A DNA stretch of 37,637 bases from a virus. This document shows positions 3,909 through 37,398 of this stretch, piece by piece. Location: IMG/VR virus record IMGVR_UViG_3300033388_004806, positions 1 through 37,637 of that record, one strand, 5' to 3'. How positions within the stretch are numbered: position 1 is the stretch's first letter; each line of letters starts with the position of its first letter. Under the pieces are notes generated by a model. The model did not search any database. It was not told the DNA's origin and was given only the letters and a program-made list of their open reading frames with translations. Made by a program: the position numbers and the translations under genes.

Positions 3909-4492
3909 AAGGCACTAGAAGAGGAATGGCTATGCTACCAATATTCAATGCTAACCAAGAGCGAGCCAGAGATCTCGTCGAGAAAGATAGCGGTGTGTGG
4001 ATTGAGTTGTTGAGGGAACAGCCGCTAGAAGGCATGGAGTTAGCTGTATTCGGTAGTACGAATAACCCTGCACATGATGGTACAACTGTATTTACAATGC
4101 AACCGCAAAGAGGATATTTATTATACGGCGAAAATGGGAACAGTATAATTATCAAGCTCTATCATCCGTCAGGTCTGTATGATGTCAAGGAGACTTGGTG
4201 TGCTAGAATATATGAATACATTGAAGGACAAGGAACTGAAATTACCATCCTTTATAAGTCAGATTATACCAAAGAAGAGCTTGAAATATTAAATTACAAA
4301 TGGTGCTCCCCTATTCTTATGCCCCGCGAAGCTGTTCGGTCTAGGGTGAAGATTGATACAACGGTGGAGCAGAAAGATGACGGCCTATGGTATGAGATTT
4401 ATAACTGGACAGAGGAGATGGTGAAATGGCACCTGCATAACAAAATGTTACACAGTTTTGAGGGAAGGAGTAGTAATAATGGTACAGACTAA
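3905..4492 (+). CDS. Hypothetical protein in replication operon
   Basis: This 195-residue protein is coupled to the upstream ATPase by a 4-bp ATGA overlap. The start is supported by GAGGAG in the tail of the previous gene. The chain is acidic and beta-rich, with no transmembrane segment, metal-binding motif or recognisable fold; the centre (GYLLYGENGNSIIIKLYHPSG) suggests a small beta-sheet domain. One 23-bp palindromic element (4433-4455) lies inside the last 20 codons and encodes LHNKMLHS, so the DNA signal is overlaid on coding sequence here, unlike the other copies. The extreme C-terminus (FEGRSSNNGTD) is low-complexity and probably reflects that overlap. Function unknown. Confidence 0.75.
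   Translation: MKGTRRGMAMLPIFNANQERARDLVEKDSGVWIELLREQPLEGMELAVFGSTNNPAHDGTTVFTMQPQRGYLLYGENGNSIIIKLYHPSGLYDVKETWCARIYEYIEGQGTEITILYKSDYTKEELEILNYKWCSPILMPREAVRSRVKIDTTVEQKDDGLWYEIYNWTEEMVKWHLHNKMLHSFEGRSSNNGTD
4433..4455 (+). repeat. 23-bp interrupted palindrome, copy 1
   Basis: Left arm CTGCATAACA, centre AAA, right arm TGTTACACAG. It is identical base for base to the copy at 18826-18848, although the flanking genes run in opposite directions. It ends 23 nt before the ATG of the next gene at 4479. Confidence 0.9.
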
Positions 4493-4658
4493 ACTAGTGC
4501 TACGGCTAATTAAGGATGGGAAAGATGTAGGGAGAATGAGGATAAGAAAATCCAAAGTTTCTACAAGCATGTTTATAGAGCAATCTCGTAACGATGATAT
4601 TTGGTTTTCTATATACGCTGAGCTAATTGACTATGACTCCTTTGAATTGCTAGTTTAA
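4479..4658 (+). CDS. Small hypothetical protein at end of rightward operon
   Basis: I place the start at ATG 4479 because GGAAGGAG at 4463-4470 has normal spacing to it. The upstream in-frame ATG at 4458 has no Shine-Dalgarno. The product is 59 residues beginning MVQTKLVLRLIKDG and is rich in short beta-strands. It overlaps the end of the preceding gene by 14 bp. Its TAA (4656-4658) overlaps the stop of the converging late block, so the two operons meet with no intergenic space. No family recognised. Confidence 0.65.
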   Translation: MVQTKLVLRLIKDGKDVGRMRIRKSKVSTSMFIEQSRNDDIWFSIYAELIDYDSFELLV

Positions 4659-7600
4659 CGCTCTTCCTCTGCTTCTTTCTTTAACTGTTTTCTAGCCTTA
4701 CCCTTACCTTTATCAACAGCCTTCTCCAAACCTTCTATCACCCTTTCATCATCATAAGTAGGCCACAGCCTGCGTCCTACTTCCTTCTCAATCTCTTCTC
4801 CTACATACAAAGCAGAAAGCTTCTGGTATCTATCATACCTTTCATCGTTAAGCACCCAGGTCCCAATCCTTCTACTCAATCCTTTAACCGTTATACCAAA
4901 GTGCTCTAACACAGCCTTATTCTCTTCAGAAAGCATATCACGGACATTTCTTTCTGCCCCTCTTTGCTCTCTAAACATAGGCCTTAGGTCTGGAATGCCT
5001 CTCCTTTCAGCTCTCGCTATCCCTTCTAACTTACCTATCTCACCGTGCATGCCTCTCACAAGCTCTTGTTCTTTAGGACTTAACTCATCCCAAGCAACTC
5101 CATAATAGTCATTAGCAAGCTCATCTTTCTTATTCGCAACGTCAGCCCAAGGAGAAGGAGGATAAGTCTGTTGACCAATGCCCAAAACGGATGGAATAGA
5201 CATAGCAGTTGCAGCAACCCCTATAGCTATTGGGTCTCCTACTTTTGACTTAAATATATGACCTCCCTCAAGTCTTTGAAATCTAATAACCTCAACTATA
5301 TCTTGAAAAGTCATTGGGCCCATCCGTTTCCACAATACATTGTCAAAAGCGACCTCAGCAACCTTCTTAACACTTTCCCAATCCATACGTAGGCCTTTAG
5401 GAAGAGTGAAAGACTCTCTGATAGATCTAGGCGTAAACTCTTCTCTTATCATAGTCTCCTCTGCTATTATATCTGTAACCCCTCCACCAAGTGGAGACAA
5501 CTTAGTTCTAAGAAAGTCAGTGAGCGTTTTTGCCCTTCGCTTAGTATATATATGACCTGTTGCTGTAGCCTTTCCTTTTCCCATTACCATCTGAGCAACC
5601 ATCCTAGCCATAGATTGGTCAGCTCCCCAATAGTTGTACCTCGTGTTGCCAATCTTGATCTTTCCAAAGTCGGTTGAGAGGGGGTTGTGCTCTACTTCTG
5701 CACCTCCAAGTTTGGCAAGACCCATAATAGCAAGACCAGTACCTACATATCTAACTAACCCACCAGCAACAATCTTGCGTACCTCTGGAGTACTTGTAAA
5801 CAGTAGCAATGGCATCTCGAATCTAGAGGAAGTATACCTTGGAGAGAAGAAAGCAGCGTTTAGTGCTGGGCCTAGAGCCTTGAGAGCTCCAAGTGATCCC
5901 CTACCACTAAAAACATTTATCATATGGGCTAGGCTCTTCTCTTGTGCCAACTTCTCTAATGGTGACAACGCTTCAAACCATATACTCCCGTCCCACTCTT
6001 GCCCTGTTATGTAATCGAAGTAGTCTGCCCTTAGCTTGTCTAAATAGATAGCATATGCTCTCGCTGATGCCCTAACACCAGGAATAAACTGAGCAAGCCT
6101 GCCCTGAATGGCCTCTTCCCTCATCCCAATATCAGCAGTGTCCCAAAACTCTGACTTAAATACACCGGCTTCAGCCCTTCTCTTGGCTCTAGGCCCCACT
6201 CTTAACAGCATATCCTGCGCCTTAAAGTATTCCTCGTTGGCGAACGCTTTTAGCTGAGTTATAAATGCCTCCTTAGCAATCTTTGGCTTCATTAATCCGA
6301 GTATAAGTCCCTGTCTTCCAGCTCCAGATAGATCCTCAGCAGTTAGAGTAGTCCTTGGAGTATTAGCTGCTTCTAAAAGAGCCCCGTAGATCTTAACGCC
6401 TGCAGGTCTCTTTGCTTCTAATGCAAATTCTATCTCAGGCCCAAACACTTTGGCAATAGATTTCATGTCATTTCCTCTAGGGACAACACCATTTGTTAGG
6501 TTGCTTAAAGCTCTACCTGCATGAACTCTATTAAATATACTTAATGGTGCAGCATGAATCCTATTAAATAGGTAATCTATCTGACTCCTAGGTAAGAGCA
6601 AGGGATCAATTTCCACCTGCGGCAACTTCTGCCCCGTTGTACTCCTTAAAGCTTCTCTATATCCAGCTTCCCCTGTCCCTGCTCCCCATATCGTGTCTAT
6701 TTGCAAGGCCTTTCGTTGAAGCTCCTTATGTGTTAGATCATCTAGTTCCTTTTTACTGACCTTGGTCTTCTTTACAAATTCTAGCAGTTTGCCCTCAGGC
6801 GTCTGAGGCATACCAGTTGCCTTGGGCATTCCAGGCCAAGGTGTTCCCTTTGTAGCCCTTGGGTTCTTACTCATATATTCCTGTACTAAAGGTATATGGG
6901 CGTCAGCATCCGCTAAAGCCTTTATCTCAATCCCCCTTTTCTTTGCAAACCTAGCAAACCCCTTGATATTTAGGTCTCCAGTATTAATAGCTCCACGAGC
7001 AGCATCGGAGCTAACAGACCATTTAGGAGGACGTTTGCCTGCACCAAAGGGAAAGAGGGTCATGCCTAGAGTTCCGCCTTCAACTTCAGTTCTAGCAGCC
7101 TGTTCCCTAAAGTACTTAGCCCTTCCCTCCTTACTCCTCATTATCTTTGGGATATCCTTGGAAACCTGAGCCTTAGTCTCTCCCCTCTGTATCCTCTTCC
7201 ATACATCTAGAGTAAGAAACCCTTTCTCTTTATCTGTAAGTGACTTAAACCAAGGAGCTTTCACAAGGAACTTTCCAGCACCAGCAACCTTACCAGCTGT
7301 AACCACCTTCCCTATAAACTCTGCAACCTCTGCCCCAGTTTTAACAGCCCCACCTTTAACGCCTAATACCTCTGGAAGACCCTTGCCTGCCCCAAACTTA
7401 TAATCAATATCTTCCCTTACACCAGCCGCACCAAGATTCATGAGTTCACTTATACCCATAAAAGTACCTACTCCAATCAAAGTAGGGATAGGTGCAGCAA
7501 TAGCTCCAGCAGCCACAGCAGGAACCAAAGCAGTTTCGACTAGACCTTTACCTAACTCTGGCAATGTCGGCCCTGTCATCTCTCCTCTAAGTCTAAGCCT

Positions 7601-37317: not shown

Positions 37318-37362
37318 AAAAGGCCGATATTGTGAAAAAATGTGAAAGATGTCGGCCTTTTT
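37318..37362 (+). terminator. Intrinsic terminator after the rightward gene
   Basis: Left arm AAAAGGCCGATAT (37318-37330) pairs with ATGTCGGCCTTTT (37349-37361) with one T-G wobble, loop of 18 nt, followed by a run of T. GC-rich stem core GGCCGA/TCGGCC. It lies 60 nt after the stop of the rightward gene and fits a Rho-independent terminator. The stem also ends in A-runs, so it may work in both directions. Confidence 0.8.
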
Positions 37363-37375
37363 ATTATATTATTAC

Positions 37376-37398
37376 CTGTGTAACATTTTGTTACGGAG
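37376..37398 (+). repeat. 23-bp interrupted palindrome, copy 7
   Basis: Left arm CTGTGTAACA, centre TTT, right arm TGTTACGGAG. It lies 14 nt after the terminator and is not immediately upstream of any gene in this window. If the genome is circularised or permuted it could precede the truncated left-end operon. Confidence 0.9.

Follow-up and report, generated by a model that had tools for sequence, protein, structure and literature searches.

What reads the interrupted palindrome that recurs at gene junctions along this phage genome, and what does the phage use it for? The window, by which we mean the whole stretch of DNA that was analysed, is a 37,637-base IMG/VR virus record in which a first-pass annotation had described seven such elements and interpreted them as a dispersed operator or stoperator system. 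Our analysis retains one part of that interpretation, namely that the palindromes are dispersed DNA-level sites for one trans-acting protein, and departs from the other, as the sites are symmetric, evenly tiled and free of promoter signals. Based on comparisons of sequences across relatives, we consider it likely that a phage-encoded protein, in which a ParB-type clamp and a helix-turn-helix (HTH) domain are fused to a DNA methyltransferase, uses the palindromes as parS/NBS-like nucleation sites.

Palindromic sites in the window and in its closest relative

The DNA polymerase, primase and major head protein of the window suggest that it belongs to a podovirus-like group that has the PaP2-like Pseudomonas phages as distant kin. 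Its closest named relative is Desulfofustis phage LS06-2018-MD01, and its closest relative is a genome referred to here as G001, with a major head protein identity of 75%. A motif rescan recovered all seven palindromes exactly where the first-pass annotation had placed them, while dinucleotide shuffles of the window gave an expectation of 0.04 matches. The base-for-base identity claimed for the sites at 4433 and 18826 holds, and five sites (4433, 9077, 18826, 26018 and 32156) do lie 12-23 nt upstream of a start codon. What had been missed is a decaying 20-bp tandem array headed by the site at 35989. The sites, none of which is assigned to a strand, are listed below together with their counterparts, given as centres in G001.

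4433..4455, no strand: palindromic site 1, CTGCATAACAAAATGTTACACAG, within the 3' end of the 3905-4492 ORF and 23 nt upstream of the start (4479) of a 59-aa ORF, near the early/late convergence; counterpart at 14928, between convergent genes
9077..9099, no strand: palindromic site 2, between the stop of the preceding gene (2 nt away) and the start of the 8093-9064 (-) gene (12 nt away); counterpart at 20658, same junction
18826..18848, no strand: palindromic site 3, 18 nt before the 18430-18807 (-) gene; counterpart at 30914
26018..26040, no strand: palindromic site 4, 21 nt before the 25688-25996 (-) gene; junction empty in G001, where a site lies ~1.9 kb off, at the portal start (35166)
32156..32178, no strand: palindromic site 5, 15 nt before the 31091-32140 (-) gene; counterpart at 41859
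35357..35881, - strand: small-terminase-like protein with an HTH, set aside as site reader (see below)
35989..36011, no strand: palindromic site 6, ~110 nt upstream of the small-terminase-like gene (start 35881, -) and first unit of the 20-bp tandem array; counterparts at 46886 and 46920
36009..36031, no strand: tandem copy of the site, 3 mismatches to consensus
36029..36051, no strand: further, degenerate tandem copy in the 20-bp array
37376..37398, no strand: palindromic site 7, downstream of the 36670-37257 (+) gene and a terminator-like stretch; counterpart at 48405, after the homologous gene

The tandem array spans 35989-36070, upstream of the small-terminase-like gene, and its copies are progressively decayed; relatives likewise carry their own site ~90-150 nt upstream of their small-terminase-like gene. 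A weak extra match to the core, with 2 mismatches, is found in the control region at 36368-36382.

Relatives carry motifs of their own

When relatives were scanned for the same motif, its exact form had no match elsewhere in IMG/VR, whereas G001 was found to carry a changed version at ten places, of which at least five are junctions that also hold a site in the window. A de novo search for dispersed palindromes recovered a different motif in nearly every further relative, always with a constant layout (~23 bp, odd-centred, with an A/T centre) and at 6-21 places per genome, and all 23 of the 23 genomes with near-complete early regions have a motif of their own. Examples of half-sites are CTATGTCCCAA in the Desulfofustis phage, CTTTGTTCAAA in G003, CTATGGTAAAT in both G005 and G006, and AGATCGTTTAAT in both G023 and G030. 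Accepted genomes scored 113-925, compared with a maximum of 70.8 among the 48 dinucleotide shuffles that served as the null of the pipeline; for G012, which the automatic search missed, 8 sites were obtained by listing palindromes by hand followed by a scan. The same pipeline returned no significant motif for PaP2, Kuura, MelJY and the Vibrio phage, and a set of four palindromes in Vibrio phage VS-ABTNL-3 was rejected with a score of 72 against the null maximum of 70.8. Much of the divergence of the motif follows phylogeny (r 0.74).

Placement, spacing and action at the level of DNA

Of the 340 sites counted across 27 genomes, 266 fall mostly outside coding sequence (expectation 30) and 200 are followed by a start codon at most 60 nt downstream (expectation 28), with both counts resting on gene calls made by a simple script and not by a standard gene finder. 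Most sites mark the 5' end of a gene, with 8-20 nt separating them from the start codon, and the usual order at the junction is stop codon, palindrome, ribosome binding site and start codon, a tight fit that we read as the only spot which a compact operon leaves free for an element of 23 bp. The spacing is also far more even than chance placement at junctions would give: the coefficient of variation of the gaps is 0.28-0.74, compared with ~1.0 for random gene junctions, and falls below the null in 23 of 23 genomes (Stouffer z -10.1), such that the sites tile the early and late blocks evenly. For the window taken alone, even spacing is only suggestive (p 0.066). Upstream of the sites, -35/-10 signals were not enriched and base composition was flat.

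The location just upstream of ribosome binding sites is also perfectly suited to RNA hairpins in mRNA leaders that would act in processing, stability or translational control. However, the A-C mismatches which the first-pass annotation had reported in the sense strand at some sites are present, and over 200 sites in 27 genomes they outnumber G-U mismatches 170 to 72 (p 3e-10). In addition, the arms vary independently of pairing in sites across relatives and match each other less than if they were independent (481 matches, 536 +/- 10 expected). The excess of A-C over G-U together with arms that match less than chance indicates that the element acts in DNA; the site seems to be selected against RNA hairpin formation, and we give the hairpin explanation almost no credence. 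In all relatives, the arms within a genome agree less than chance, as if perfect palindromes were avoided.

A ParB-methyltransferase fusion as candidate reader

The protein that we consider the likely reader combines a ParB CTPase fold, a ParB-type HTH and a beta-class N6/N4 DNA methyltransferase, and its gene was found in every near-complete genome. Pfam ParB_N and N6_N4_Mtase were matched in three relatives. A profile of the fusion matches Noc across the N-terminal domain and the HTH (E 1.5e-19), which makes Noc the best match of the ParB part, and also matches ParB, KorB, CcrM and RsrI, while the predicted fold (pLDDT 83) matches CcrM and Noc/ParB-CTP. CTPase boxes I-III are kept (GLIxPLAV, AGxRR and ENxxR), as are the methyltransferase motifs, in which a DPPY-type motif IV precedes motif I (GSG; GSGN); the motif IV variants DSPY/DFPY occur in G001 and the Desulfofustis phage, with G001 having DSPY for DPPY. 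Fusions of a ParB CTPase with an N6_N4 methyltransferase are common and enriched in phages, and the accessible part of the survey that describes them suggests only anti-defence roles (PMC12704722). We found no report of DNA sites for such fusions in the open literature, with subscription journals outside the scope of the search.

In relatives, the palindromic site and the fusion gene reside on the same replicon, while the window is truncated and lacks the gene, as is apparent from its left end:

1..370, no strand: contig left end, matching G001 at ~10315 by synteny

In G001 the fusion gene is found at 8238-9542, ~770 bp before the point that matches the start of the window. By synteny, the contig thus begins ~770 bp past the position of the gene, which accounts for its absence from the window, and the predicted link between the sites of the window and the fusion therefore runs through the relatives. 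The fusion protein is also encoded by VibVS and MelJY, genomes without a significant motif. Co-occurrence does not separate the conserved candidate families, as the hypervariable ribbon-helix-helix (RHH)-like early protein F21, another small RHH-like protein, a small-terminase-like HTH protein and the fusion are each present in all near-complete genomes.

Covariation between the recognition helix and the site

A closer connection came from inspection of the HTH alignment, in which the recognition helix differs exactly where the motifs differ. The fusion protein has at least 449 relatives. New material consisted of 80 loci around relatives of the fusion gene, 30 of which gave a clear motif in the same pipeline, bringing the total to 52 protein/motif pairs; 22 of the 52 had been seen beforehand and had prompted the focused helix test. 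When 420 protein columns were each compared with 10 motif positions across 44 non-redundant proteins, recognition-helix position 2 with motif position -6 ranked first of the 4200 pairs (Z 6.4; next 4.8). Histidine or arginine occupies helix position 2 in 13 of 13 proteins with G at -6 and in 1 of 31 without it (p 2.7e-10), and the association is retained in 22 proteins of less than 50% identity (p 4.7e-5). Glutamine is found at this position in two of the four proteins with A at -6. Weaker associations, identified after the fact in the same data, link A(-7) with D2, A(-5) with M3 and G(-4) with K/R7. G001 and L190, which have the TAACA half-site in common with the window, carry M at helix position 3 and R at position 7, and the fusion protein of this phage is predicted to do the same. 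Helix position 2 aligns with R173 of Caulobacter ParB, as judged from the K-S-R pattern; R173 reads guanine 1 of parS, and Q173 reads adenine 1 in the NBS background (PMC7383237). Counted from the dyad, the base that is read stands at ~6.5 bp in parS and at 6 bp in the phage sites.

The residue/base code is incomplete, given that G007 and G026 have proline or glutamine at helix position 2 and that further exceptions are scattered among the proteins. Whole-protein partial Mantel tests did not single out the fusion and are uninformative because everything follows phylogeny, and a scan covering every family gave equally high ranks to windows from other proteins. At the level of single residues, the covariation points to the recognition helix of the ParB-type HTH as the putative reader of the site.

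Alternative readers and alternative roles

We considered whether the palindromes are operators or stoperators of a separate small repressor such as the RHH-like early protein F21. This was the first candidate reader, being universal (23 of 23 near-complete genomes), early and flanked by sites, with one at most 150 bp after its stop codon in 14 of 23 genomes, and motifs have diversified in a comparable way among cluster A mycobacteriophages (PMC6550527). F21 was nevertheless dropped since its divergence does not follow the motif: it tracks the motif worst of 20 families (strand test p 0.43), and G023 and G030 combine one motif with two very different F21 types. A fold search with F21 gave only weak ParD RHH matches. 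The integrase profile PF00589 had no match in eight genomes (the control matched in 14), a host-linked relative is predicted to be strictly lytic (PMC10370329), the sites are symmetric and evenly spaced, and the residue/base covariation points to the ParB-type HTH of the fusion instead of a repressor, all of which makes this explanation improbable. Two further proteins were set aside as readers, namely the small RHH-like family fam18, which shows a weak strand signal (p 0.04) and is possibly a partner of the fusion, and the small-terminase-like protein, whose recognition helix is invariant among relatives with different motifs. Promoters, either for an RNA polymerase of the phage or of the sigma-70 type with operators overlapping them, would fit the number of sites and their placement at module starts, which resemble those of T7-type promoters. 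Yet the sites are symmetric with flat base composition upstream, and the giant virion proteins match a lytic transglycosylase or nothing, such that a virion or T7-like polymerase with hairpin promoters was rejected for lack of a polymerase among them; PF00940 was unmatched in the genomes, but its control matched nowhere either. Overlapping sigma-70 promoters were discarded as -35/-10 enrichment upstream of the sites was not found, and we regard promoters of either kind as highly improbable.

The main rival keeps the fusion as reader and changes its role to that of a KorB-like or VirB-like global regulator or a Noc-like organiser, in which clamp loading at the 5' ends of modules sets their timing and methylation is secondary. 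The predominance of sites shortly before start codons agrees with such a role, and OB sites allow KorB to silence promoters at distances of up to 1.5 kb (PMC11790492). On the other hand, the sites tile the genome evenly, one site in G001 lies between convergent genes, promoter signals were not found near the sites, and a compact genome would force placement at junctions anyway. We therefore view a primarily regulatory or organising role as possible, though on balance doubtful.

Relation to known systems

Like Noc and its NBS sites in Bacillus subtilis, the proposed system pairs a ParB-family CTPase clamp with many palindromic sites across one replicon (PMC7383237, PMC8429893) and shares the HTH specificity position (PMC7383237). 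However, Noc has a membrane-binding helix and lacks a methyltransferase, and NBS is a fixed 16-bp even palindrome, whereas the phage sites are ~23 bp, odd-centred and phage-specific. KorB of plasmid RK2 is similarly a ParB-family clamp with dispersed OB sites on a small replicon (PMC11790492), but acts as a co-repressor with KorA and has no enzyme domain; no KorA homologue was identified here. The partner ATPase of ParABS partition systems, ParA, was likewise not seen among the conserved families. The stoperators of cluster A mycobacteriophages resemble the sites in being tens of dispersed, largely intergenic elements with a motif that has diversified between phages (PMC6550527). They are, in contrast, asymmetric 13-bp elements oriented with transcription and read by the monomeric immunity repressor of temperate phages (PMC9283540), whereas the sites described here are symmetric over ~23 bp, evenly tiled and without -10/-35 signals, in genomes in which PF00589 was unmatched (eight searched). 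The analogy to L5-type stoperators drawn in the first-pass annotation is thus not supported.

A model for the fusion and its sites

ParB, Noc and KorB nucleate at palindromes, close their clamp upon CTP binding and slide (PMC8429893, PMC11790492). By analogy, the HTH of the fusion would dock on the palindrome, CTP would close its ParB clamp, and the clamp would leave the site and slide along the few kilobases that follow; with stations at even intervals, clamps may cover the whole phage genome. We infer that the sites serve to deliver methylation to, or to silence or organise, the phage's own DNA. Less certain is the purpose of the methyltransferase, which, judging from the domain fusion and the even tiling, could be carried along the phage's own DNA while host DNA stays uncovered, leading either to self-marking against restriction or to methylation-based control. 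As a tentative but serious possibility, we suggest address-directed self-methylation, in which phage-specific stations load the sliding ParB clamp and its methyltransferase onto the phage's own genome. Self DNA would then be marked by its address and not by the short recognition sequence of the enzyme, and each phage lineage would change the address.

The domain architecture itself is already known from phage ParB-CTPase/N6_N4 methyltransferase fusions; the accessible part of the survey names no DNA sites for them (PMC12704722), and it is the sites that we propose here. If the proposal is correct, target sites could be read from any genome with such a fusion, dozens of natural protein/site pairs would be available for a ParB specificity code, and the steering of a DNA-modifying enzyme to one replicon by a clamp would be directly testable.

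Additional observations

The F21 family (L018:2166-2483 and relatives) is universal and hypervariable, has no Pfam match and often has a site after its stop codon, and in 18 of 18 genomes checked the gene for fam18 (L018:7800-8063 and relatives) shares the strand of the fusion gene and precedes it by 175-630 bp. In the window, a family A DNA polymerase is fused to a uracil-DNA-glycosylase domain (356-2761, +), and four tandem paralogous genes of 112-125 aa are found at 18430-19894 (-), compared with five copies in G001. The portal ORF (21108-24149, -) encodes 1013 aa, compared with 659 aa in G001, and has a LAGLIDADG match at residues 654-703, between the portal parts; the insert is probably an intein or a homing insertion.
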